Source: Blastobasis lacticolella (Eukaryota > Arthropoda > Insecta > Lepidoptera > Blastobasidae). Taken from it: a stretch of DNA of 64,000 bases. The notes under the pieces were generated by a model. The model saw nothing but the letters and a program-made list of their open reading frames with translations, was not told the origin of the DNA and searched no databases. Of this stretch, positions 791 to 56,378 are shown one piece after another. The translations under genes and the position numbers were made by a program. Where the stretch lies: assembly GCA_905147135.1 (NCBI GenBank), contig LR990040.1, positions 22,395,857-22,459,856 on the forward strand, read 5' to 3'. Numbering within the stretch: position 1 is the first letter of the stretch; each line of letters begins with the position of its first letter.

Positions 791-1570
791 TGTTTGTGTG
801 TGTGTGTGTGGCGTGGTTTTAAATTAGCAGCAGATTACCAAAAAATGTGTCGTCTTCCTGTTTAGATCCAACTGTGATTCATCCATCTCAGTCATTCATA
901 AATTAGCAGACTGTTGAATTCGCAATTTAAGACACCACTTTAATGTGCTGCCCATTTTCCGAAAAAGATAAGACGTGTTAGTAGTTAACTGACCTAAATA
1001 ACCTGCTGCAAATAGACTAATTTGCTGGCTGATAAATAATGCGCATTCATTTCGCCCGTTTGAAAATAAAAGACGCCCGCTTTTCTGAACGAAATTACGC
1101 GTTAATTACAGTATAATTAGGAGAGATTATTTGCTACATTTAAAGAAGCTGTAGATCTATTTATATGTTTGGAAACAATTGAACAATGATCTTTAAACGA
1201 GTCTGGATGTCTGGAATTTGGGAAACTCGGTTGTACGCCTAGAAAATGAAAATGATATACCTTGCCTAATAGTACCTACGTGTGAATACGTGTTTGACTA
1301 TACTTGTGTTTGGTATGCTATTAAATATGATCTGTTTAAACTGACTTGACTTATTTGGTGAACAAACAATGCCCAAAATCACGACTTTCCGTATCAATCA
1401 CGCTACGTATATTGTGTATAGATGACGAGAATTATACAAAAAACACATAGAATGTGAATTTCAACGAATACTGCTGCACATTATCCATTAAAATACATAA
1501 TTTCCTTAACCAAATAAGACAAGTCAGTTTGGACAGATTATATTTCTATTTAGGTTGTAATCTATCTAAA
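791..1570. other. No gene; short TG microsatellite
   Basis: A TG run lies at about 791-810. The rest is AT-rich and shows no recognisable gene or repeat. Confidence 0.5.
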
Positions 1571-1752
1571 CATAGTATAAAATAAAGTCGCTTCCCGCCG
1601 TCTGTCCCTATGTATCTATGTACGCTTAGATCTTTTAAACTACGTAACGGATTTTAATGCGGTTTTCAAAAACAAATAAAATAATTCAAGAAGAAGGTTT
1701 ATAAGTAAAGTAAAGTAGGTATACGCGAACCAAGTTGCGCCGGGTTCACTAG
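1571..1752 (+). mobile_element. Short Helitron-like element (HLE)
   Basis: It runs from TAGTATAAAATAAAGTCGC to a CTAG end followed by T. The shared body has ACGGATTTTAATGCGGTTTT. In better copies (for example 9996-10183) a stem CGCGA / TCGCG around loop ACGAAG lies 9 bases before CTAG, matching the Helitron 3' end rule (hairpin, then CTRR, inserted before T). It is non-autonomous, with no Rep/helicase. Confidence 0.6.
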
Positions 1753-1802
1753 TAAATAATAATAATACGTGCATGGAACCTTTTCATAATATCTTGGAAC
1801 AT

Positions 1803-2209
1803 GTCATCATCATCATCTTCGCGTTAATGTCCCGTATGTGCTCTCGCGCACGAGGGCCTGGGGTCCGCCGTGACCACAATCCAGGATTTGGCAGGTCAGG
1901 TAGTCACAGGGGAACCAGACCAGATTGGATCATGGTTACACATCCAGTCGCCTGAATGTACAGGTTTCATCACGATGTTTTCCCTCACCGTAAGAGCATC
2001 GGTTATTATTCAACTAATGTACATAACTCAGAAAACAGTCATTGGTACATGGCCGGAGCGGGATTCGAACCCGGGACCTCTGGCTTACGAGTCAGATACT
2101 CTTACCGCTCGGCCACTGACGCTCTCCGCTCGGCCACTGACGCTCTCCGCTCGGCCACTGACGCTCTCCGCTCGGCCACTGACGCTCTCCGCTCGGCTAC
2201 TGACGCTCT
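1803..2209 (-). mobile_element. SINE-A, full length, head amplified
   Basis: Read on the minus strand it has a tRNA-like head (A box around GGCCGAGCGGT, B box GGTTCGAATCC), then a conserved body (CATCGTGATGAAACCTG, then GATCCAATCTGGTC), then a GC-rich tail and GATGATGATG. The head end is tandemly repeated five times. Pol III internal promoter boxes are visible. The tRNA part is a SINE head and not a functional tRNA. Confidence 0.85.
2105..2209. repeat. 21-bp tandem repeat, 5 units, at a SINE head
   Basis: Five consecutive 21-base units beginning CCGCTCGGCCACTGACGCTC; the last has one C-to-T change. They extend the outer end of the tRNA-like head of the SINE-A copy. Confidence 0.95.
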
Positions 2210-2371
2210 CACTGAATATCTTGAAACATGTACGAGAGGATATTTATCTCAAGCTTAGGCTCAAGAGACTGTTCTTCCCAGCAGAAGACCTAGGTCACCC
2301 TCGCTTCACCAATGGTATTAGGAGGCGCACCTAGCGAATGGCGAGCTCGTTGCGGTGCTGAAGTCCGATTA

Positions 2372-2445
2372 GCCAGATAGTACAAAACGGTCACCCATCC
2401 AGTTATGTAGGCGTGAGTTGCTTAACTTTTGATATCGGTCTCGCT
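2372..2445 (-). repeat. 5S rRNA-like segment
   Basis: The minus strand contains AAAGTTAAGCAAC and GGATGGGTGACCG about 20 bases apart. They match the internal promoter box A and box C regions of 5S rRNA. The ends of a 5S gene are absent, so this is a 5S-derived repeat or pseudogene. A better copy lies at 53914-53983. Confidence 0.55.
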
Positions 2446-3789
2446 AGCTGGGATCGCTGTTGACGACTCCCGTTACTGTTCTCGAAGTAAAAAGAAAGAA
2501 AAACAAAAAAAAAAACTCGAATTTCACCCTAATGAGGCTGCAGTCCAAGCTATACAAAAGCGAGTAAGTTTATTTGAATGCAAAGTAATGAAGGAGACAA
2601 ATGTCTGCCTCCTCATCTAGATAATAAATATGCCAGCTTTGTATTTTTGGTGAAAGCAAAATAATTTATTCAGATAAAAAAAAGGTGCTCGTAAAAATTT
2701 GAAGCACGGCCGCACAATGATTGCTGTTTACGTATCCGAAGTTTTGGAGTTACAGAGTTGGCCCCGGTAGTTGTATTTTATAAGCACGGTTTCCCGAGCA
2801 CGTAAAACTTAGACTTTTATCTTGAATTCAAAATTGCGAATTAAAACTTTCCCTTTGTTGCTACAAGCTGTTAAAGTGCGAAGTTTAGTATTCGACAGTG
2901 TACGCTTCCTACCCCGGGAGCGGGAACAGAGCTTGTGTTTTAATTAGGTTTAAGTACTGCTTTTCCAAATCCTGGATCATGGTCAAGTTATAACCCAGTG
3001 GTGTCCCATTTTTCTTAAATAATACGTACAACATACGTCTTATCTGCATATAATTATCATATCTCTCTTTTGTAGGCCTACGGGAAGGGATTTCTTTTAG
3101 AGATAACTGAAACTGCCTGTACTTTCTATATTTGTTATCTTGTGTACAATAAACTGTTAAATAAATACATACAAACTAACATACATATGTACTGTAGTAT
3201 AAAAATTTGCGAGAACGTCTTAGAAGTCGATGTTGGTGAATGATTATATCGAAATTAAGAATATCATCCCTGTGCAACGTATTTGAAATAAATAAAGAAA
3301 AGCAAAAAAGAGGTACGTTTTTACAGTACGCAATAGCGAACGATTTCTCTAGACTTTACTCTGAAACGCGGCACAAACGGTTTGGTCGTGCGACTTACAC
3401 CCGTAACTCAAACACAAACAAAACTTGTCTAACTAAAAAAGTTTTACTATGCGTTCTCTCAGTGCCCACTACTAAGTACTCGAACTAGTGCAGCCTACCC
3501 CGGACAACATTTCTTCTGATTCGGATCGAATGCAGTACGTAAAACACTCTCACAAACTTTCGCGCAACGCGAAGGCTTCTTCAAGTGCACTTAGAACCAC
3601 CCACTTAGTCTCAGTACACTTGAAGACAAAATATGCAATGTTGTCTTTATATTCTAGCAAATTTCAAACTTGCAACAGATTGCGTAAGTTTCGAAATTAA
3701 AATCAATAGTTCCAGTGAAACTCCTGTAAACTAAAGCAACAACTTTACCTCCTTACAATATCAATACAGTTTGCTTTACATAGAAACTG
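2446..3789. other. No gene; one retroposon tail
   Basis: About 3125-3180 ends in GTGTACAATAAACTG followed by AAATAAATACATAC, a polyadenylation-signal tail of a retroposon. Open frames at 3240-3700 show no domain or motif. Nothing else was recognised. Confidence 0.45.
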
Positions 3790-3925
3790 GTGCTCTGTTG
3801 GTACGAAAATCGTCTCAGCTGCAGTAACATTAAAATTGTGATTGGGATTGTGATATTTTCTGTATGTCTATTTTGTATACTATTTATTGTGCACAATAAA
3901 TGTTAAATAAATAAATAAATTGTTA
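3790..3925. repeat. MITE end fragment plus AATAAA tail
   Basis: AATCGTCTCAGCTGCAGTAA at about 3810-3830 matches the terminus of the MITE at 47482-47919. It is followed by a separate tail with GTGCACAATAAATG and (AAAT)n. Confidence 0.5.
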
Positions 3926-4024
3926 TACAAATGAATGATGTTAGATTTTTTCCACAATTTGTTTTCTGGTACCTTAGTTGCATTATGGTTACATTACTAA
4001 GTTGCATCTTTCTTCTGTCAGATT

Positions 4025-4420
4025 AATGAGCAGTTTTCCAATAGGTATTTAAAGCATTCCTAACCACTCCCTAGATGGCGCTCCGACAATTTTGGTAATT
4101 GATAATCGCTTGAAATAGGTTCTTAGCAAAAAGGATATAAACACCGGGTACGTTGTATTGGATAATATTGTATTTATTAATAGTTTTCAACCATTTTAGA
4201 GGTTGTAATAAATTATTACAAACAAAACAAACATCAATTTGACTGAGTCAATTCGTTTCATGGACACTAGGATCAAGAATGGACGCAATACACATATGAA
4301 AGGTTTGTATTAAAATACATTTCGTTGAACCTTTTGGTAAAAAAATTACCAAAATTGTAAGAGCGCCATCTATTGACGCTTTTTGAAACCAATTAACAAT
4401 ACCTACTGGAAAACCGCCAA
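4025..4420. mobile_element. MITE family M1, copy 1
   Basis: The ends are inverted repeats: GCAGTTTTCCAATAGGTAT at the left and ATACCTACTGGAAAACCGC at the right. Subterminal inverted copies of AGATGGCGCTC(C)GACAATTTTGGTAAT follow. A second copy, in opposite orientation, lies at 34046-34462. It has no coding capacity. Confidence 0.8.
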
Positions 4421-4797
4421 CTTAATTAATTGTCAAATTGCAATTCTGTCAACGAAAACGTGTGAAAGGTTTGATCGAACAATTATATAGCTGCAATGTT
4501 ACTCTGATGATACTCTACTCGAGCTGAGCTGAGTTGGAGTTAAACTAAAGTTGCTACTCAGAAGTAGAGCCAAAGATTATGCTATTACTAAAGTAATTAT
4601 ACGTAAGTAAGTAAAGTCAGTGTGTGGAAAAGACGATTTCCTTGTGTTTTTATGACTTAATCATTTACGTAACGCCGGACATTTGCCAAGCGTAGCGAGA
4701 CCGCGTAGCGATTGATTAAAAGCGGAACCGAGAGAATATGCTAATAAACAGGATGAAAACTTACCATTTAATTGAAGTCTCGTGTTGTAATAAAGCT
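4421..4797. other. No gene recognised
   Basis: No motif or repeat that I could name. Confidence 0.4.
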
Positions 4798-5050
4798 ACA
4801 TCATCACAGCCCATAACAGTCCACTGCAGGACTAAGGGCCTCTCCCACGAAAGGAGAGGTCATTGGAATAATCTAGTAATAAGTTGCTTGGCCGGCGGGT
4901 TGGAGATCGCAGTGTTATAAATATAATAATGGAAAACGCTGCTGCCCATTTTCCAGCCTGCGGGGACTAGATCTTTTGCCTCGAAAACATTAGTCGCGAG
5001 TGTAAGGGGTTGGTGCTATTCTACTCTGCCGGACACCACAAGGCCAACAG
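4798..5050 (-). repeat. RTE-type retroposon 3' end (family R3)
   Basis: This is the reverse complement of the block at 20125-20408, also found at 46250-46510, 48400-48660 and 59245-59485. All start near GTGTCCGGCAGAG and end CAGTGGACTGTTA, then GGGCTGTGATGATG. The constant 3' end and GATGAT tail are those of a LINE or SINE. Confidence 0.75.
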
Positions 5051-5126
5051 AGCTACATGGGACAATTTTAAACTACGCAGTGGCACCCTGATAGAAATAT
5101 CTGGATGATTAATTATATTAATCATA

Positions 5127-5416
5127 TTGCCCGGTTGTGCACTCGCACACGGGAGCCCGGTGTCCGCCTTGACCATGATCCAGGATTTGGCAGATCATAT
5201 AATTACAATGGTGCAACCTGACCTCCGTGACTCTGCTACCAGAGGAAGCTGACGCGATTAGACCATGGTTACACATTCAGTCACCTCACCGTAAGAACAT
5301 CGCATTTAATTAATATAACTCATAAAAGAGTCGTTCGTACATGGCTGCACTGGGTATCGAACGCGGTACTTCTCGCTAACGAGTCGGATACCTTTACCAC
5401 TCGGCCACTGACGCTC
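5127..5416 (-). mobile_element. SINE-A, diverged
   Basis: The tRNA-like head (TCAGTGGCCGAGTGGTAAAG on the minus strand), body and GC-rich tail are present. The part between the central motif and the head is partly deleted. Confidence 0.75.
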
Positions 5417-5667
5417 CTATCTGGGTGAGACGTAATAAGGCATGGGTTTATCGAGCAAACTGTAGTTGTCAATAGGAAATTGATTAAAATCGTCCAGTTT
5501 TTAGTTCTCACGCCTACTTTTTGTCGGTTATGTTATAAGTAGTTATGACATCGTTTCGCATCCGAAATCGTTAAATTTTTTGACTTTTATTACTTCTGTA
5601 CCTACTTTTAAGAGATATTGGGCTTATTGGGATATCCTGTTCCAGCTGGAGCCGCTCGGCTGGGGAA

Positions 5668-5780
5668 GTATGTATGTATGTATGTAAACTCTTTATTACG
5701 TATAACTACATAAAGAACAATAACAAAAGAAAATAAATATACATTGCAAAGGCAAAGGAAGTCCTTCCTTACAGAATACC
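5668..5780 (-). repeat. Retroposon 3' tail with (TACA)n
   Basis: The minus strand reads CGTAATAAAGAGTTTACA and then a TACA microsatellite, an AATAAA-type signal plus a tail repeat. Confidence 0.5.
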
Positions 5781-5932
5781 GCAGCCAAACATTACTATAT
5801 TATTTAAACAGTATCTAGTATCGTGTTGCTGTAGGTGAGTGCCAAAGGTCTTCAGTGCTCCATGGGGTACGTGGGGTGGGTAGTATAGAGACTCTAGCAT
5901 TCGCCTATTTTTATACAATACGGATTGTACGC

Positions 5933-6140
5933 TCGTACAATTCGGATGTGGAATGAGCTCCCACCCACACCCCTTTGGACTATGACATGGGATCGTTCAA
6001 GAGGTATATTAGAGGTCTCTTTAGAGGTTGGCAACGTATTGGTGACTCCCCTGGTGTTGCTGATGTCATAGGCGGCGGTGACCACGCACCATCAGGTGGC
6101 CCGCTTGCCTGTTTGTCTGCTGTGTAACATAAAAAAAATA
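5933..6140 (+). pseudogene. LINE C-terminal fragment (family L2)
   Basis: The plus-strand translation contains MWNELP, then YDMGSFKRYIRGLFRG and GDSPGVADV before a stop, followed by a short A-rich tail. This is the conserved C-terminal end of a jockey/CR1-like non-LTR retrotransposon. It is truncated and carries small indels. Confidence 0.7.
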
Positions 6141-6385
6141 CCCCCGACGTAAAAATAATTGTGTTTTAAGTATTGGGTCGGGGGCTATCCAATATTTTTC
6201 TGTCGGTTAAGTTATTTATAAGAGGGACGCAAACGGGCAAGGTCCACAAGTCCGCTAATTTACTAATGGCTCGATTGAATTGTAATTGAATCGCAAAAGC
6301 AGCTCAATGGCAGTTTGACGCGTTACATTTAAATCTGCAATAGCAATCCAATTACAATTAAATAGTGCCAAGTTTGATGACTTGA

Positions 6386-6480
6386 GGCCCAGGTCACCTG
6401 ATGGTAAGTGACCACCGCCGCCCATGGACATTCCTTGAACACTGTCCATCTGGTGGCCTACTTGCCTTTTTGTTTATCGA
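6386..6480. repeat. Degenerate LINE 3' tail
   Basis: It holds CACCTGATGGTAAGTGACCA, the untranslated end shared by the L2/L3 LINE tails. Upstream 6240-6380 is homeodomain-site-like AT-rich DNA (repeated AATTGTAATTGAA) with no gene. Confidence 0.45.
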
Positions 6481-6680
6481 TTAATATACAAAAGAGTAGG
6501 TACCTACTATAAACTTCTAAACGTAGGTTTTATGATATATTTTTAAGTAAGTAAATAACCATAAAAAATAATTAAATACCCCATGTCTAAATATTAATCT
6601 TTCAGCTTGTTGCTAGGAAAAAGTAATAAAAGATTACGCAGCACGTGACCAAACCAGCGCAAATCGTCTATACCTAAAGA

Positions 6681-6800
6681 TAGATAGATGGATAAACACT
6701 TTATTGCTCATAAACAATAACAATACCAATCAGTTACAGTAACCAGGAACACATGACGATCACACAAGTGATCTCTTCCTGGCAACCTTTACAGAAATTT
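6681..6800 (-). repeat. Retroposon 3' tail with (ATCT)n
   Basis: The minus strand shows CAATAAAGTGTTTATCC and then an ATCT microsatellite at 6681-6700. Confidence 0.5.
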
Positions 6801-7054
6801 TACAGCAGGTAGTGTTGAGCCACAGGATACAAGAGAATACTAAAGTGATACTCGTGATATGCGGTGCGGAAACTAGTTCCAAAAGATAATTAACATGTTC
6901 CCTCACTATGTCGGGCTGCGTTTTAATTAGAGAGTGTTGTGTGGTGTTACGTTATAAATGAATTAATTTACAGGCAAGATAAGTTTGAAGGTGAGTTCTA
7001 CTGAGATTCGGGATGCTAAAGTTAGGATGGGTCTCCGTTCTATTCATCTTCTTT

Positions 7055-7695: not shown

Positions 7696-7734
7696 GTTTT
7701 CTACTATTGGTGTAGAAACTAAAACATTCGGCTG

Positions 7735-8378
7735 CATACAAATAAACATTTGTGTGCTGATCGTAAGTGACGATGCGGTCGATGATGGAGCATGCCTGTC
7801 AAGGAACAGCGTCTCCGCTTTAGCCTTGAAGGCGTCCAGATTATAATGATCAGGGACACACTCGCAGGTAATGCGTTCCATTTCTTGACCGTACGCATTA
7901 TAAAGGTTGAACTAAAGCGGCTCGTGCGGATAACTGGAAGATCCACTACATAAGGATGAAGCGCTCGTCCGGATCGCGTCTCCCGATGGCGGATAGGGGC
8001 CGGCGGAATGAGGTCGTGCAACTGCTTCGCCCACTCTCCGAAATGCAACCTGTAGAAGACCGACAAACGCGCAAACCTACGCCGATGCTCGAGGCTTTGC
8101 AGCTTAGCCTCAATCAACTGTGGATAACAAATTAGCTTCTTTGCACGTTTTTCCACCGAATCCAAAGCAGCCAGTTGGTATTTGGCTGATCCATCCCAGA
8201 GGTGGCAGCAGTACTCTATGCAAGATCGGACTTGTGCTTGATATAACTGAAGCAACTGCCTTGAAGTGAAGTACCGCTTGACCTTCAAGAGGATTCCAAG
8301 TTTTTTCGGTGCAGTCTTGGCTTTTGATTCTAATATTTTGTTACAGCTAGTTTTCCGGACTGAAAGTACAAAACCCAT
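7735..8378 (-). pseudogene. LINE reverse-transcriptase C-terminal region (L1)
   Basis: About 210 codons on the minus strand match the post-RT C-terminal region of a jockey/CR1-type LINE. Visible motifs are YQAQVRSCIEYCCHLW, then VFYRLHFGE, then HPYVVDLPVIRTSRF and WNALPASV. The frame then shifts by one base near 7855 (one T appears lost), and the expected PDHYNLDAFKAKAE continues in the other frame. The RT catalytic core is absent, so the copy is 5'-truncated and dead. Confidence 0.8.
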
Positions 8379-8454
8379 TTCCCTGAATCTTCGTGTTTTT
8401 CTTTGAACTTCATACTAACTGAACCTAGCACTGTACGTGGGACAGTGTTACGTT

Positions 8455-21901: not shown

Positions 21902-24540
21902 CTCAATTCAATTCAATTCAATTCATTTATTGCCTTTCCATGTGTTAGTAAATACAAGTTCTTAAATATATATATTAGTACAAGACATGGAACCCTGGTC
22001 GGGTATAGCAAAAATTTATTACATAATAATAATAGAGAGGATGCAGTATTTGAAATTAAATATTAAATCAATTAAATACAAAATTCTCAATTATAAAATA
22101 ATGGCAAATCAAATAAATCAATTGTCACAAATATAATAAATAATACAAAATGTCAATATTAATAAAAATAGTCTAATTTTTTTTATAATCTACCTTCTTG
22201 TTTTTACAAAAAGTTCGTCTACCGTGTACAACGTTCTTTCCATGAGATACTTGTGCAGTTGTGTTTTAAAACGGTTCAGACTTTCAGTTTCTCGTATTAT
22301 TTTCGGTATGGCATTATATATTTTTGGGGCCATTGCAAAAACACTTTTGTGGAACAATGTCGTTTTGCAAGGGTGCAAATGTAACTGGTCGCGGCGCCGG
22401 GCACTTTCCACACTTGGGAATAGGCGACTGTTTGTACGTACGAACACTGTAACCTCGTATACGTATAAGGACGGCATGGTTAGTAAATTTAATTCTTTAA
22501 AGAAAGGCTTACAACTATCAGTACGTCGCAAGTCACAGATAGCCCTTATGCATCGTTTCTGTGCTTTAAATACTGAATCAATTCCAGTTGCGTTGCCCCA
22601 GAAGATAATCCCATATCTGAGCACGGAGACTACAAGACCGTGATACGCCACAATCAACGTTTTTCTACTGGCTAGTTTGCTTAGTCTATAAAGTGCGTAT
22701 GAAGATTGGCTGATCCTGTTACATACGTATTCAATGTGAGTATGCCAATTCATATTCCTATCTAAATACAATCCTAGGAATTTTGTTTCATTTGTTTCTT
22801 GTATTATATGTCCATTATGTTCTATATTTGTATGTGCAGTCCCCTTATATCTCTGTTTAAAATTAATAATTTTCGTTTTGTCAAGATTAATTTGTAGGTT
22901 ATTACTATGTAACCAGTCAATAATATTAGATAATATTTGATTAATTTCAATTATATTATTTATTAGCACAGTGCAGTCATCGGCAAACAAATTCATTAGA
23001 TTATTAATAGATTTAACGATGTCATTTATATATATAAGAAATAATAAGGGTCCCAACACACTTCCTTGCGGAACACCATAATGAACTGCATTACTATTTG
23101 ACACATATTTAGTTTCAATTTTAGTTTTGGGACATATCTTATTAATTTGTGTAATTTGTGTTCTCCCACAGAGGTATGATTTTAACAATTTATTGACATT
23201 TCCCCTAACGCCAATAGCTTCCAATTTTTCAAGTAATATATTGTGGTCAACATAGTCAAAAGCTTTAGTCAAATCTAAAAATAATGCTATTATAGGTAGG
23301 CGATTATCCATTCTTAAATAAATTTGATATAACATGTCATACATAGCCATATTAATGTTTTTATTTTTGCGAAACCCATTTTGCTGTGGTACCAATATTT
23401 TATTCGTTTCACAGTATTGGTAAAGCGAAGTATAAATTACTTTCTCTATTATTTTAGAAAATATTGGTATCAGGGCCAAAGGCCTATAATTATTAACATT
23501 TGTGCAGTCTCCTTTTTTAAACAATGGTTTTATTATTGTTGATTTCAGTTTCTCTGGGAAGACACCTTCAGCAATGCACAGATTAACAATATGGCTGATT
23601 GGTGTACAAATAGTATGCGATACGTATTTCACAACTTTTGTATTAATATCATCATAGCCCGTACTGTTTGTGTTTTTCAAGTCTTTTATTATTAAAAAAA
23701 TGTCATGAGGAATCACAGGAGTCATAAATAATGAATTGATAATAGTATTTGAGATTGTTTTCTTATAATTATTTGCAGTAGGCCTTGATGATGAGCTCGC
23801 AACATTTGAGTAGTGATCGTTAAAAACTTGTGCTATTTTTTTTGGATCATTAATGTTGCAATCATTTAATTTTATTTGGGTTATGTCTTCTTTTGGGAGC
23901 TGCTGTTTATTATCATTTATTATTTTCCATGTGGCTTTAGCTTTATTGTTTGCCGTCATGATATAATAATTATTTTGGGATTTTTGAGTTAGTTTTATTA
24001 TTTTATTTAGTTTTCTAGAATATTTTTTAAATGTATTTCTGTCGGTTTTATTCCTTGTAAACCTATATTTCCAAAGAAGTTGACGTTTGCGTTTAGCACA
24101 CATCTTTATACCCTTAGATATCCAGTTTAATCGTTTTGTAACAGTATGCTTTACTCTAATAACAGGAAAACATAGACTATAAAATAGTTGGAAAATGTCA
24201 TAAAATTCATTAAATGAATCGTTAGCATTTTTGCTTGAATAGATTGTATTAAAAGTTAAGCTTTTTAGGCAGTCAGCAAATTTAATTAGGTTTTCTTCGC
24301 AATAATCACGTCTTTCTGTGTACCAGGTTGAAATTCTGCAATATTTTTTTACTGGAAAACTGACATATTGAGCCGTATGATCTGAAATACCGAATTCGAA
24401 CACCTGACCTTCTTGGTATATTATGTATTATATTATCTAAGCAAGTACCACTCTCCAATCTTGTTGGCTCATTTATTGCAAATTTGAGATTGTATGCAGA
24501 TATAGTTTGCTGAAACTGCGTTATGCTTAATTTAAAAATT
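21902..24540 (-). mobile_element. Non-LTR retrotransposon (jockey/CR1-type), 5'-truncated
   Basis: Homology starts near 24540 with the end of the endonuclease domain (FAINEPTR, then CLDNIIHN). It runs through a reverse transcriptase frame and an AT-rich 3' UTR and ends with AATAAATGAATTGAATTGAA, a TTGAA microsatellite tail. The endonuclease N-terminus and any first ORF are missing. Similar tails are known in jockey/CR1-like elements. Confidence 0.85.
22190..24403 (-). CDS. Reverse transcriptase of a non-LTR retrotransposon
   Basis: The 737-codon frame starts inside the endonuclease (ISDHTAQYV, residues 6-14), not at a true start; the first codon is GTG. Residues ~300-480 are the RT: NNYRPLALIP (304-313), catalytic LFLDLTKAFDYVDH (374-387), GVPQGSVLGPLLF (443-455) and FADD (473-476). 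A basic post-RT region follows (ALYRLSKLASRK, VLRYGIIFWGN), then the WN-less tail typical of jockey/CR1 elements. The RT catalytic aspartates are intact and there is no internal stop, so the copy is young or recently dead. The upstream endonuclease residues are in another frame (1-base shift near 24405-24420), so no full-length protein is made from this copy. Confidence 0.88.
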   Translation of the reverse strand: MFEFGISDHTAQYVSFPVKKYCRISTWYTERRDYCEENLIKFADCLKSLTFNTIYSSKNANDSFNEFYDIFQLFYSLCFPVIRVKHTVTKRLNWISKGIKMCAKRKRQLLWKYRFTRNKTDRNTFKKYSRKLNKIIKLTQKSQNNYYIMTANNKAKATWKIINDNKQQLPKEDITQIKLNDCNINDPKKIAQVFNDHYSNVASSSSRPTANNYKKTISNTIINSLFMTPVIPHDIFLIIKDLKNTNSTGYDDINTKVVKYVSHTICTPISHIVNLCIAEGVFPEKLKSTIIKPLFKKGDCTNVNNYRPLALIPIFSKIIEKVIYTSLYQYCETNKILVPQQNGFRKNKNINMAMYDMLYQIYLRMDNRLPIIALFLDLTKAFDYVDHNILLEKLEAIGVRGNVNKLLKSYLCGRTQITQINKICPKTKIETKYVSNSNAVHYGVPQGSVLGPLLFLIYINDIVKSINNLMNLFADDCTVLINNIIEINQILSNIIDWLHSNNLQINLDKTKIINFKQRYKGTAHTNIEHNGHIIQETNETKFLGLYLDRNMNWHTHIEYVCNRISQSSYALYRLSKLASRKTLIVAYHGLVVSVLRYGIIFWGNATGIDSVFKAQKRCIRAICDLRRTDSCKPFFKELNLLTMPSLYVYEVTVFVRTNSRLFPSVESARRRDQLHLHPCKTTLFHKSVFAMAPKIYNAIPKIIRETESLNRFKTQLHKYLMERTLYTVDELFVKTRR

Positions 24541-36614: not shown

Positions 36615-36811
36615 GACAAATTGAACTATTCAGTTGGTTAGCATGGCCGTCCCGCAGAGGTCCCGGGTTCGATTCTCGGTCGAGCAGAAATTTAAATGAT
36701 GAATTTGAATTTCTGTTACCGGTCTGGGTGTTATATGTACAATAAGTATCTATTTAAAAGTATATAAGTAGTTTATCAGTTATGTAGCACCCATAACACA
36801 AGCTTTACAAT
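36615..36811 (+). mobile_element. SINE-B, 3'-interrupted
   Basis: The tRNA-Gly-like head and body are present up to CACCCATAACACAAGCTTTA. The expected GGGGCTAGATGGCGCTGTG end is missing here, but a version of it appears at 41056-41090. Confidence 0.65.
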
Positions 36812-37130
36812 ATTATAAAGTACTTACATGTGACACCCTGTAAGGGCATTGCAAACAAAGTGAGAGAGAGCATGCATTATTTACATTATGTCATAACTTA
36901 AGTATTTAATTAAGAGTACATATTTTTTCCTTAAATAAAAAAAATAATCAATGAGTTGCATATTAAAATATCAATCAAATAATAATAATAATAATGTCAA
37001 GTTAGTAGATATATTAGTCAGATGTCATTCTGTATAGTAATAAATTTTTGTCATCCGTTTTCATGTCAGAATGTAATCAAATAATCAAATAGCGATGTGC
37101 CGGATTATCTTAATTCAAGGTCAATCTTAG

Positions 37131-37895
37131 TAGCTGAGGTCCTATTGAGAAAAGTGCTACAATTTTGCGTCGAGCAATGCCACTTGGCATGGACGTTATA
37201 TGGACCAAACTAAACCCAAAAAGCCCGTTAGCCACGCTCGACCCCCCGTCAGAGGGGGGCAGGAGGGGGTCAAAGTACCTGACTCCCTACATTTGAAAAA
37301 AAAATTCTAGTGGCCACATTTGACGTACAAAGCCGTGTCTGGTGTCGTTTTCAGATAAGTCGATGATGGCCGATTCAATGGGCACAATATTTTTGTGGGT
37401 AATCATAGAAAAAAAATGCGTAATGGCTATAATTATTTAAAACCAGTCTTAAAAAATTACAAATAGACCCCTATATTTTCTGATTTTTATATGAAAGATG
37501 ATAAGGAAAAAAATACTCACTAAAAGCCTATTTAATGTAGATTATGAAAACATAAACATCCAATAACTTATTCACTGATATTCATGTAAAAAAAATTTTT
37601 TAACGGACGGACCGCCTATACTGTGGCGCGGCGAAAATATAGCCCAGGCAAAATTAAAATATGAGATAGAAGAAATTAGCATTTTTTACATAAAGTGTAG
37701 AACTCTACACTTTATGTAAAAAGTCCCCATCTGTAGTTATGCTTTTGGTGTGAGGGGGCCCGAAAGGTCCCGTTTTTTGGTGTTTCGTAAATATCTCGAA
37801 AACAGTGCAATCTTCGGGAATATGGTCTATTACTAAATAAAAGCCTATAAAATTCTCTACAAATTTTTCTTTGTACACTTTTTTAAATTCCCATT
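37131..37895 (+). repeat. Left terminal inverted repeat
   Basis: It pairs with 40270-41053. It contains a perfect 19-bp-arm hairpin at 37683-37722 (TTTTTACATAAAGTGTAGA, 2-base loop) and a G/C-rich GACCCCCCGTCAGAGGGGGG hairpin-like stretch near 37240. Confidence 0.9.
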
Positions 37896-38458
37896 AGTTT
37901 ACAAACAATAGACTCTCGTTTGTAGCAGTAGGTCAAGCATCCTTTTCTGAGGGAATGGTACGAAAATTTTGTATAAAATATACATGACTGTAGTTTTTTG
38001 TGATATATGTACAAATTAACAGTTTTGGTTCTTTTACCTTTACTTGTGCTGTAAGACCTTGGTTCTTGCGAAATTTCATGATTGTAGGTAATCTGATATA
38101 AAAAACCTAAAAATAAATACAACCAGTGTTATAATTTTATAACAAACAGACCCAATTTTCAGAGATTTTCTATTGAAACATGCATAAAAGTACTATAGTA
38201 AGTTGCGCGTTAAATGTAGATTATAAAAACCGACCACGTTAGTTATGTGCCATTAGCCCGGAAAGCATTATCGGACGCGACACCAAATGGGGATGAGGTG
38301 CGCATAGCACAAAATATTATTATTTGTAATCGGAATCATTGACATTCGTTATAAAGTGACACTAATGAAACCAAAATACTTTCTTTAAAAAATCAAGGGC
38401 ATGGCTAACAAATTCCCCTATGATCATTTACTATTTAAACGTTAAAAGACTTAAAAGT

Positions 38459-39892
38459 TTATTGGCAGTTTCCACCACACTTGCACAATTCCGTGCACTT
38501 CAGCTGGCGTTTACAACAATTACACCTTGTGCCGCGAGATTTAAGGCACCTGCATCTAATTAGTTCTAGGCACGCTTGGGCAGCCATGGCCCTTTCAGTC
38601 CAAAGTGGCAACCAGGTGTCATTTTCTTTCTGCCAGCCAAATTCAGAAGGGCAGGGTGTAGTTTGTTGTTTTATTAAACATTGCCCCCAAACGTATACGC
38701 CCAGAAAAACTGCTCTTAATATGTGTTGTTTCAGAGCAGCTTCTGTGGGGGGTATATTTTCAATCTGCCTGTCCTTTTTAGTAAACAAATATTTCCGGCA
38801 TTCATTCACCGTCTCCGATGGGCACGATCTGTAAAAAGCGATTTTGATTATTCAAAAATTTTGTTATTATAATATTTTTTTGTATTCCTTACCTATCGTA
38901 CATAGTGATGATGAATTTTTGAATGTCATGGGTCTGCTTTAACATAGTTTCCTTCATAAAGAAACTTCAACCCCTGTGTTGCATTGGGGTATGCTCTCCA
39001 TGCCTCGAAGGCGGTTTTTTTGCCCCTCCCGTTAAACGTTGACGTCGTATCGCACCCCGTAAGTGAGTGGAACAGCGGCAGGACGTGAGTTTTTTCGGGA
39101 CCATAAATAAAAGAGCCTAAAATAAAAATTCAGCCCTGTAAACCTGTGCAGAAATCAAATTATTTTACAATTACCTAAACACGAAGCGATTGTGTGGCAG
39201 GCTAGATATTGATGCGCTTTCCCAGTGCCAATGTGCACCCACAGTTCTTCCATTCCTTGATTTTTTGGAACACATGCTACTGCCAAAACTACGACATCTG
39301 TGTCAACGGTTCTCACCAATACCTTGGAATGGCCTCTTGAAACCGCGTCAGCTACGTGAAGCATCAATCGCGTATCGGCCTCTTCGTGATTGCACGGTGC
39401 AATGTTCTCACAGGAGGTAGTTTTACTAAGAGCTTCAGAGGCATCTGTGATAATGAACTCTTTATCGATTGGAATGGTCATGTTCGAATAGCAGTGGGTT
39501 GATAGCAGGTGATACAGATCGGCTTTGTTTGCTGCTTCCCTGAGAAAGTTTGCCCATCCTTTCGGCATTCTTGTATTTGTATGAACTAATGTGCGTTGGC
39601 CAGGACCTCGTTTTTCTCGTGTGGCATTCTTTAGGCTAGATTTTTTGTAGGTATCCCATACTACATCTAGCCTTGACACATTTAAAAGTTCCCGCAACAA
39701 AAAGGAGCAAAACACATTAGTTGCATAGTCGCCGAAGGTTTTCGATAGCCCTGGATTTAACATGTGAACTATAGCAGAGCCATCCAATATTTTTGCGGTT
39801 ACGTCAGGAGCTGATGGAAAACTGGTTTCATCGTCAAACTCTGTGAGACATTTCAGCAAATCTGACTTTACACCAGATCTCAGTGTTCCCAT
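38459..39892 (-). pseudogene. Transposon-encoded XPG/PIN-like nuclease protein (3 exons, one frameshift)
   Basis: Exon 1 is 39892-39175 with NHEEADTRLMLHV (residues ~168-180) and VLVRTVDTDVVVLAVA (~191-206), resembling the acidic motifs of XPG/FEN nucleases (E-A-D, D-x-D). Intron 1 is 39174-39117 (58 bp, GT-AG). Exon 2 is 39116-38893 with PLFHSLTGCDTTSTFNGRGK. Intron 2 is 38892-38829 (64 bp, GT-AG). Exon 3 is 38828-38459 with PPTEAALKQHILRAVF, a W-x-PLW motif and a CxC/CXXC Cys-rich end resembling CXC domains. The exon sum has one surplus base; the frame change lies at about 38952-38970, so the copy is broken by a single indel. An AATAAA overlaps the stop. The frame is open upstream of the ATG for at least 12 codons, so the true start may lie further up. 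I know this protein only as a widespread, mostly uncharacterised invertebrate family. Confidence 0.75.
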
Positions 39893-40220
39893 GGTCGATA
39901 GAGCCGGTGGACTACTTTGGTTTAATACGTCCCAGGTTCAGGGACTCTATATAACGTTAAAATAGAATATTAAATCATGTTTATTCAGTTTTTACCATTT
40001 CTTCAGTGTTCGGTGAACTCCCCCACAATACCACGATAGTAATGATATTGCAGATTCTAGTTTTACTTCTTTAAGCAACTCGAAAGTTCATTTCCGTACT
40101 TATAATTGCATTTCTCCATCACTGTACACTTTCCACAGGTATTTGTCACTCTTTACACTATCAGTAATGTGAATAGAAACCCGAAATTCACAATAAAAAA
40201 GTCACGCGGGTAAAAAATTC

Positions 40221-40262
40221 CACATTGCGCATTTTACTCGGGTGAGTAAAATGCGCAGTGTA
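40221..40262. repeat. Hairpin at the inner edge of the right TIR
   Basis: GCGCATTTTACTC and GAGTAAAATGCGC are separated by GGGT. Confidence 0.75.
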
Positions 40263-40269
40263 TAATAAT

Positions 40270-41053
40270 GGCATTGGGAATTTGAAAAAGCGTAGGTACA
40301 CAGCAAAATTTGTAGAGAATTTTATAGGCTTTTATTTAGTAATAGACCATATTCCCGAAGATTGCACTGTTTTCGAGATATTTACGAAACACCAAAAAAC
40401 GGGACCTTTCGGGCCCCCTCACACCAAAAGCATAACTACAGATGGGGACTTTTTACATAAAGTGTAGAGTTCTACACTTTATGTAAAAAATGCTTATTTC
40501 TTCTATCTCATATTTTAATTTTGCCTGGGCTATATTTTCGCCGCGCCACAGTATAGGCGGTCCGTCCGTTAAAAATTTTTTTTTACATGAATATCAGTGA
40601 ATAAGTTATTGGATGTTTATGTTTTCATAATCTACATTAAATAGGCTTTTAGTGAGTATTTTTTTCCTTATCATCTTTCATATAAAAATCAGAAAATATA
40701 GGGGTCTATTTGTAATTTTTTAACACTGGTTATAAATAATTATAGCCATTACGCATTTTTTTTCTATGATTACCCACAAAAATATTGTGCCCATTGAATC
40801 GGCCATCATCGACTTATCTGAAAACGACACCAGACTCGGCTTTGTATGTCAAATGTGGCCACTAGAATTTATTTTTCAAACGTAGTGAGTCAGGTACTTT
40901 GACCCCCTCCCGCCCCCCTCTGACGGGGGGTCGAGCGTGGCTAACGGGCTTTTTGGGTTTAGTTTGGTCCATATATCGTCCATGCCAAGTGGCATTGCTC
41001 GACGCTAAATTGTAGCTGTCTCCATACATCGATGCTCAATAGGACCCCAGCTA
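40270..41053 (-). repeat. Right terminal inverted repeat
   Basis: Inverted partner of 37131-37895, with the same 19-bp-arm hairpin at 40450-40489 and a 15-20-base insertion near the outer end relative to the left copy. Confidence 0.9.
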
Positions 41054-41092
41054 TAGGGGCTAAATGGCGCTGTGTGAATTATCCAATCATAT
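41054..41092 (+). repeat. SINE-B 3' end segment
   Basis: TAGGGGCTAAATGGCGCTGT then GTGAAT matches the SINE-B 3' part. It touches the right end of the Academ-like element. Confidence 0.6.
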
Positions 41093-46782: not shown

Positions 46783-47035
46783 TCCTTTGGACTATGACAT
46801 GGGATCGTTCAAGAGGTATATTAGAGGTCTCTTCAGAGGCGGGCAACGCATTAGTGACTCCCCTGGTGTTGCTGATGTCCATAGGCGGCGGTGACCACTT
46901 TACATCAGGTGGCCCGCTTGTCTGTTTGTCTGCCGTATAACATAAAAAAAAATGTCTATAGGCAATGGTGACCACTTTCTATCAGGTGGCCCGCTTGCCT
47001 GTTTGCCTATCGTATGACATAAAAAAAAAGCTTAT
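46783..47035 (+). pseudogene. L2 LINE end with duplicated 3' tail
   Basis: ACTATGACATGGGATCGTTC and the CATCAGGTGGCCCGCTTGTC tail with its A-run end at about 46955. A second tail copy (ATCAGGTGGCCCGCTTGCCT plus A-run) follows at once, to 47030. Confidence 0.65.
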
Positions 47036-52924: not shown

Positions 52925-53110
52925 CGATTACCCGCGCAAAATCCCCTCCACTGCCATTTGACATGTCTCTTCTTTCGTGATGCGCGTTATACCTGCGCGA
53001 AATCCCCTCCACTGCCATTTGACAAGTCTCTGCTTTCGTGACGCGGGTTATATCTGCGCGAAATCCCCGCCACTGCCATTTGACAAGGCTCTTCTTTCGT
53101 GACGCGGGTT
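52925..53110. repeat. 61-bp tandem repeat, ~3 units
   Basis: GCGCGAAATCCCC-CCACTGCC starts recur at 52932, 52993 and 53054 (exact 61-base period). Each unit ends CTTTCGTGACGCGGGTTATA. Confidence 0.9.
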
Positions 53111-53309
53111 ATACCTACTTGACGCTAAAATTGCAACGAAATACATGTGTCGGCGATACGAAGGTCGCCCCACATAGTTTCATGCCCCACTGACTCAATG
53201 AACTTGCGTAAATGTGCGATAGAATTGGATTTTAGGGTTACGTGGGCTGATGTAGACGCGGGGTAATGTTACACTCTGTTTGTATAATTATATATTATAA
53301 TACGAGTAC

Positions 53310-55789: not shown

Positions 55790-56378
55790 TTATAGGGAGG
55801 AATGCTAGCCCGAATATCCGCGGCTTGGGCAAAGTGGCGGGAGGTGACGGCTGTCATTTGTGACCCCAAGATGCCGATGAAACTGAAGGGACAGGTCTAC
55901 AAGTCCATTATTAGACCTGTTCTCTTATACGGCAGCAAGACTTGGCCTCTACTAGAGCGACACAAGCAGGAGTTGCGAGTCACGGAAATGAAGATGCTGC
56001 GGTGGATGTGTGGGGTTTCCCGCAAAGACCGCGTGCGGAGCGCCCACATCCGCGGTAGCCTTCGTGTCCGTGACATCGCAGATAAGCTACAGGAGTGTCG
56101 CCTTCGATGGTATGGCCACGTCTTGCGCAGACCGGCAAATTATGTGGGGAACAGATGTCTGGCCATGCCGTCCCCACCAGGCACGAGAAGGAGAGGCCGG
56201 CCCAAGAAGCGATGGCTGGACGTCGTTAAGAGTGACATGCGTGCCAACGGACTCACTATGAAGGATGCCGAAGACCGAGCAAAGTGGACTAGACATAGCA
56301 GGAAGGCGGACCCCGGGCACCCGCGTGTAGCGCGGGGGCGCAACCGGGATTTAACGCCGAGATGATGATGATGAATGC
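55790..56378 (+). pseudogene. RTE-type LINE ORF C-terminus, best copy
   Basis: An uninterrupted frame (55802-56365, 187 codons) shows WAKWREVTAVICDPKMP, YKSIIRPVLLYGSKTW, MLRWMCGVSRKDRVR, RLRWYGHVLRRP and TRRRGRPKKRWLDVVKSD. It ends with a stop at ~56365 inside GATGATGATGATGAATG. This is the post-RT C-terminal region of an RTE-type element. The endonuclease and RT catalytic motifs are missing (5' truncation at ~55790). Its last ~70 bases match the SINE-A tail. Confidence 0.88.

Follow-up and report, generated by a model that had tools for sequence, protein, structure and literature searches.

A very probable Academ-superfamily transposon in Blastobasis lacticolella, with one full-length copy, multiplied deletion derivatives and a predicted FEN/XPG-type nuclease domain

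The element studied here occupies positions 37131 to 41053 of a 64,000-nucleotide stretch of the Blastobasis lacticolella genome (contig LR990040.1, positions 22,395,857 to 22,459,856 of the forward strand; hereafter the window). It belongs to a DNA transposon family of which at least 17 two-ended copies are present in the genome, and we consider it very probable that the window copy is a non-autonomous form, shortened by internal deletion, of a cut-and-paste transposon from an AcademX-like branch of the Academ superfamily. The window copy itself is a broken derivative, and the only full-length copy among the 17, L012 (8,140 bp; contig C16, 10850075-10858214), carries an unbroken frame of 1,481 amino acids. 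This transposon represents a new family of an already known kind, set within Academ by published descriptions, the length of its target-site duplication (TSD) and its domain make-up.

Ends, target duplications and genomic copies

The window copy is bounded by two inverted arms, 37156-37876 and 40296-41016, of 721 nt each and 98% complementary to one another. When the outer tips and a further, weaker inner match of 20 nt are included, the terminal inverted repeats (TIRs) run from about 37131 to 37893 and from about 40275 to 41053. The near-identical inverted repeats of about 770 bp reported in the initial annotation are thus real. Its TAG on both outer sides is likewise present and is taken as a 3-bp TSD because all 17 two-ended copies carry one. 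Allowing two mismatches at most, the 18 bp at the very tip (TAGCTGRGGTCCTATTGA) are found at exactly two places in the window and in none of 100 shuffles. The features of the ends are as follows.

37128..37130, no strand: target-site duplication TAG, left (3-bp duplication in 17/17 two-ended copies)
37131..37893, plus strand: left TIR, about 763 bp
37131..37148, plus strand: left terminus, outermost 18 bp, TAGCTGAGGTCCTATTGA
37683..37722, no strand: 40-bp near-perfect palindrome in the left TIR
40275..41053, minus strand: right TIR, about 779 bp, with 12 bp more than the left near the tip
40450..40489, no strand: the same 40-bp palindrome in the right TIR
41036..41053, minus strand: right terminus, outermost 18 bp, TAGCTGGGGTCCTATTGA
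41054..41056, no strand: target-site duplication TAG, right

Among the 34 TIRs of the two-ended copies, at least 16 are listed with reverse matches to the palindrome, which may be a protein-binding site. Single-strand folding of the left tip gave nothing out of the ordinary (z 0.17).

Searching the left repeat against the source genome (577 Mb) returned 60 rows, of which 42 are longer pieces and the other 18 short; the copy counts given here are lower bounds, since 40 of 475 candidates were scored. Twenty stretches were fetched, of which 17 have both ends as judged by a fixed end pattern; L026-L028, with one matching end within the fetched stretch, were dropped before duplications were counted, and three further partial places (C12, C25 and C30) lie outside the fetched set. 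The two-ended copies share the end consensus TAGCTGAGGTCC...GGACCCCAG(C/T)TA and are spread over 15 contigs. Immediately outside its ends every copy has a perfect 3-bp duplication of its own, and in none of the 17 does this extend to 4 bp. The initial annotation had proposed that other copies be sought and their flanking duplications tabulated, and the outcome is uniform, at least 17 two-ended copies, all with 3 bp and none with another length. The duplications are TAG, TAA (2), TAT, CTA (3), CAA, CCA, GTA (2), TCC, ATA, TTA (2), AAT and CAG, and as TA lies within 12 of the 17 against an expected fraction of 0.175 from window trimers (P = 2e-6), the family shows a preference for TA. One of the two-ended copies, L025 (501-5748), is a distant relative that shares the ends (one base different at one tip), has a TTA duplication and is about 84-89% similar in its terminal parts; a tblastn comparison with the L012 protein found no similarity in its interior, and it is set apart from the 16 coding copies discussed below.

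The full-length gene and its predicted protein

Modelling of the L012 gene on open reading frames, splice signals and homologues yields six exons and five introns, all GT-AG, which together give the 1,481-residue frame. In element coordinates these are as follows.

1801-3226: exon 1, followed by an intron of 67 nt
3294-3955: exon 2, followed by an intron of 78 nt
4034-4472: exon 3, followed by an intron of 276 nt
4749-6089: exon 4, followed by an intron of 73 nt
6163-6370: exon 5, followed by an intron of 66 nt
6437-6806: exon 6

At the fourth intron, the acceptor 15 nt downstream of the one chosen initially is preferred because it matches the homologues P0026 and P0001, which read CLGPEK and SLGPAM at this site, and gives L012 its unbroken frame. 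The 58-bp version of this intron was rejected, as its acceptor places a stop in frame when applied to L012. The downstream AG is kept in 15 of the 16 coding copies, L015 included, and is lost in the window copy alone.

Along the L012 protein, two N-terminal CxxC...HxxC fingers are followed by a set of acidic residues of the D/D/E type (Asp, Asp, Glu), a FEN/XPG-type nuclease region and a tail with nine cysteines. One protein search found 75 proteins, 46 of them of 1,400-1,600 amino acids, the best being a thrips protein with 44% identity over the whole length; other source names shown include annelid, sea anemone and lancelet, and the source names displayed for these proteins include no transposase. 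The query for this search and for the Pfam scan of L012 was an earlier gene model with five residues too many, including one X. That scan (maximum E 10, with filters that drop most matches above 0.1) found no DDE_Tnp_4, no other named transposase domain and no helicase domain.

In alignment A1, of 63 sequences, three acidic positions in the middle of the protein are invariant (63/63), corresponding to D53, D227 and E449 of P0026, and the motifs around them, DNIDHN, DQPLY and DQAHEQ, are strongly conserved. A predicted model, in P0026 numbering, with a predicted local distance difference test score (pLDDT) of 88.1 and a predicted template modelling score (pTM) of 0.80, places D53 on a strand (48-56), D227 just after a strand (223-226) and E449 on a helix (444-456) that follows a helical stretch, as read by eye from the secondary-structure string of the model. 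This order is the one expected of an RNase-H-like D/D/E transposase, and the region is a likely core of that kind. The nine C-terminal cysteines are each present in at least 95% of the A1 rows that reach this far.

The nuclease part is assigned to the FEN/XPG type by its predicted fold and its acidic metal-binding residues. The model of P0026 adopts a FEN/EXO1/XPG/XRN fold with 208-317 aligned residues in the listed matches, at 9-17% identity to the listed solved structures, and with the acidic residues placed by alignment. The window's own exon is also predicted to fold in this manner, with a pLDDT of 93, and aligns with XRN2, EXO1 and FEN1, which bears out the XPG-like nuclease that had been proposed from sequence. 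A search of a viral structure library gave 11 matches at E <= 0.001, to XRN-type exonucleases of large viruses and to uncharacterised or unnamed viral proteins, which we read as probably having the same nuclease fold; a search of viral contigs found no relative.

Deletion derivatives and the gene remnant of the window copy

Of the 16 coding copies, L012 is the sole full-length one, and the other 15 derive from its form by internal deletion. The window copy (3.9 kb) lacks element positions 1132-5340, and this deletion of about 4.2 kb removes exons 1-3 with the D/D/E residues along with the first 592 nt of exon 4. The deletions fall into the following classes, named by the element positions of their left and right breakpoints.

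1107/4958: 5 copies
1107/5014, with filler: 3 copies
1107/4964, with a 0.4-kb insert: 1 copy
1131/5341: 2 copies (the window copy and L010)
736/4902: 2 copies
2368/5723: 1 copy
1089/5649: 1 copy

The three classes with a left breakpoint at 1107 probably descend from one deletion, and if so, at least five separate deletion events probably took place. Copies with an identical deletion sit at different loci and have different target duplications; as four classes hold at least two copies each at different loci, deleted copies would have moved after they were formed. All 15 derivatives are without the D/D/E codons, and therefore their enzyme was supplied from elsewhere, most simply by a full-length copy. 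Thus, the multiplied deletion classes point to mobilisation in trans. In L022, the deletion junction (element positions about 1086-1498) holds an array of short-period tandem repeats of about 0.25 kb.

In the window, what remains of the gene lies on the minus strand, as follows.

39922..39923, minus strand: internal deletion junction, breakpoint 1131/5341, common to L010 and the window copy
39175..39922, minus strand: what is left of exon 4 (its 3' part), with the FEN/XPG-like nuclease core and the motifs DGSA, VWD, HEEAD and TVDTD
39102..39174, minus strand: intron 4 of the family model, AG acceptor lost (the 58-bp intron proposed initially ends at 39117)
38893..39101, minus strand: exon 5, with the TGCDTTSTFNGRGKKTA segment and a frameshift from a 1-bp insertion
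38829..38892, minus strand: intron 5, 64 nt, GT-AG
38459..38828, minus strand: exon 6, end of the nuclease and Cys-rich, CXC-like tail, stop included

The TGCDTTSTFNGRGKKTA segment of exon 5 presumably resembles the helix-two-turn-helix of FEN enzymes. Because of the frameshift in exon 5 and the lost acceptor of intron 4, the window copy is not a working gene. The initial annotation had described here a spliced gene of three exons with introns of 58 and 64 bp, acidic motifs NHEEADTR and TVDTDVVVLA and a Cys-rich C-terminus. The motifs and the C-terminus are indeed present in the window and the 64-bp GT-AG intron holds. The 58-bp intron does not, as its acceptor adds five codons absent from P0026 and P0001, and joining the three exons as proposed loses the frame in the second; in the six-exon gene they correspond to the latter part of exon 4 and to exons 5 and 6. 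Nor is this a small gene of its own within long TIRs, which had seemed unusual; the puzzle disappears because the gene of the window is a deletion remnant of one that encodes the full protein in L012.

The mean difference among the 16 coding copies is 1.03% over L012 positions 5735-6895; with gaps left aside, L017 and L018 show no difference in the bases compared over a 1.16-kb stretch. The private changes in the retained coding part comprise 64 non-synonymous, 23 synonymous and 6 stop changes against a neutral expectation of 65.9, 23.3 and 3.8 (transitions weighted twofold; chi-square P 0.52), and this test gives no sign of selection on the nuclease-only copies; changes shared between copies are scarce, with 3 non-synonymous and 4 synonymous. 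From these comparisons, the family appears to have moved recently and to have decayed neutrally since.

Classification, alternative readings and proposed mechanism

An Academ-like element with an XPG-like nuclease, as put forward initially, is the best reading of these results in view of the 3-bp TSDs of all 17 copies and the FEN-type fold, although the small three-exon gene that went with it does not stand. The pairing of an XPG-like nuclease with a Cys-rich domain in Academ we take from that annotation. In the available text of PMC10045372, AcademX elements have TSDs of 3-4 bp and AcademH elements of 9-10 bp, a difference suspected to be linked to the nuclease encoded by the former and the helicase by the latter; the consulted part of PMC5199201 gives 3 bp as the Academ TSD among insect miniature inverted-repeat transposable elements (MITEs), an excerpt of PMC9587614 counts Academ among the Repbase superfamilies with a DDD/E transposase, and one of PMC3627910 mentions a RecQ helicase in Academ. 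The present family agrees with AcademX, as described in the same passages of PMC10045372, in its 3-bp TSDs, its predicted nuclease and the lack of a helicase domain in L012 by Pfam; a D/D/E-type core is a likely further resemblance. It differs, in a comparison made by description, in TIRs of about 770 bp, in the high proportion of deletion derivatives (15/16 coding copies) and in a core with a weak DUF6589 match. At 8.1 kb, L012 is also longer than the 5,565-bp mean of curated bivalve Academ elements quoted in the available part of PMC10294476. AcademH belongs to the same superfamily and, in the excerpts of PMC10045372 and PMC10799480, has TSDs of 9-10 bp and a helicase, whereas the duplications here are of 3 bp and no helicase domain was found. 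The insect Academ MITEs of iMITEdb share the 3-bp TSD but average about 470 bp in the consulted text of PMC5199201, in contrast to the 1,481-residue frame present in one copy here. The nuclease region resembles the 5' nucleases FEN1, EXO1, XPG and XRN in predicted fold and acidic residues, but here it forms one domain within a transposon protein that also has a D/D/E-type region and a Cys-rich tail.

Several observations weigh against this assignment. Membership of Academ is drawn from TSD length, domain make-up and published descriptions rather than from comparison with Repbase sequences, and the whole words 'Academ' and 'XPG' were not found together in the literature searched, so that the link between them rests on the initial annotation and on the structural result obtained here. 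In Pfam, DUF6589, of unknown function, matches L012 at E = 1.4e-4, which is below the cut-off, and is found at E <= 0.01 in 8 of 30 scanned homologues, a weak match, with homologue P0012 above the cut-off; the XPG profile, for which a profile search had been suggested, has no Pfam match in L012, P0012 or the 30 homologues. A sequence search of solved structures gave no match up to E 10 with either the window exon or profile A1. The Foldseek matches are weak, with one PDB match at E <= 0.001 per model (XRN2 and XRN1), and ubiquitin-type E1 enzymes are among the next rows for the window exon. A transposase core is absent from the fold-search rows listed, which nuclease matches filled and which cover mainly the nuclease part. 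The model of the Cys-rich tail has a pLDDT under 50 in places.

These points could indicate a separate, undescribed superfamily that resembles Academ just in its duplication length and nuclease, in keeping with a likeness drawn by description, with DUF6589 as the sole and weak Pfam match and with source names for the 75 homologues that include no transposase among those shown. We nevertheless hold this to be quite unlikely, as a TSD of 3-4 bp together with a nuclease is the pairing published for AcademX and insect Academ elements have 3 bp, in the cited excerpts. A TSD of this length is not confined to Academ. Harbinger and EnSpm/CACTA elements also make 3-bp TSDs, and PIF/Harbinger favours a narrow TWA- or TNA-like target. 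Membership of such a superfamily would agree with the length, with the TA in 12 of the 17 duplications, some of which are TAA or TTA, and with a DDE_Tnp_4 match in 1 of the 30 homologues; yet CCA, TCC, CAG, CAA, GTA and CTA are unlike the narrow Harbinger target, the Pfam scan of L012 shows neither DDE_Tnp_4 nor another named transposase domain, and the homologue with the match, probably P0053, may hold a nested element. This origin is highly improbable. The two long inverted arms flanking a coding stretch could in principle reflect a local inverted duplication around a gene that is not mobile, which is refuted by 17 copies with the same ends and their own 3-bp duplications on 15 contigs, and to which we attach a negligible probability.

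Another reading, which concerns the derivatives, is that the nuclease-only copies make a functional nuclease or repressor that aids or regulates the family, with their 3' exons kept by selection. Small indels aside, 15 of 15 derivatives keep the 3' sequence from element position 5723 onwards, across what are probably at least five deletions, and L016 and L017 have no indel or stop in the retained coding part. However, the private changes fit neutrality, L019 and L020 are missing the first aspartate of the nuclease through their deletions, the window copy carries a frameshift and has lost a splice acceptor, and the sample was picked by its TIRs, with 40 of 475 candidates scored. Selection of this kind is thus very unlikely.

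For such a family we propose the following mechanism. The N-terminal fingers and the Cys-rich tail, judging from their composition, may help to bind the long TIRs. The D/D/E RNase-H-like core, suggested by three invariant acidic residues on a predicted model, would excise the element and join it to staggered target DNA, and repair of the stagger would leave the 3-bp duplication seen in 17/17 copies. The FEN/XPG-type domain, if its predicted fold is a guide, may trim flaps or other intermediates while the element is excised or ends are repaired. The window copy, which keeps the ends and the nuclease exons and has lost the D/D/E set, would be movable just with protein from a fuller copy. A bolder version, in which one protein unites the D/D/E core with a complete flap nuclease of the FEN1/EXO1 class that sets the 3-bp TSD by acting on the cut ends, and in which nuclease-only copies may still yield a protein that tunes movement, seems to us unlikely. 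L012, with its unbroken frame, and the young deletion copies beside it form a natural helper-and-donor pair for probing the FEN-like domain; that pair aside, the finding is ordinary transposon biology.

Other features were noted elsewhere in the window. Just left of the element, 36620-36690 is a tRNA-like stretch that by eye looks like a short interspersed nuclear element; in the window as a whole, ARAGORN detected no tRNA gene and a scan with Rfam gathering thresholds had no hit. An open frame of 745 amino acids at 22190-24427 (minus strand) resembles the reverse transcriptase of a long interspersed nuclear element (LINE) by motifs recognised by eye, and LINE-like open-frame fragments were similarly seen at 7719-8414 (minus strand) and 55796-56365 (plus strand). 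Tandem repeats are present at 52929-53116 (61-bp unit, 3.1 copies) and 46875-47029 (77-bp unit, 2 copies).

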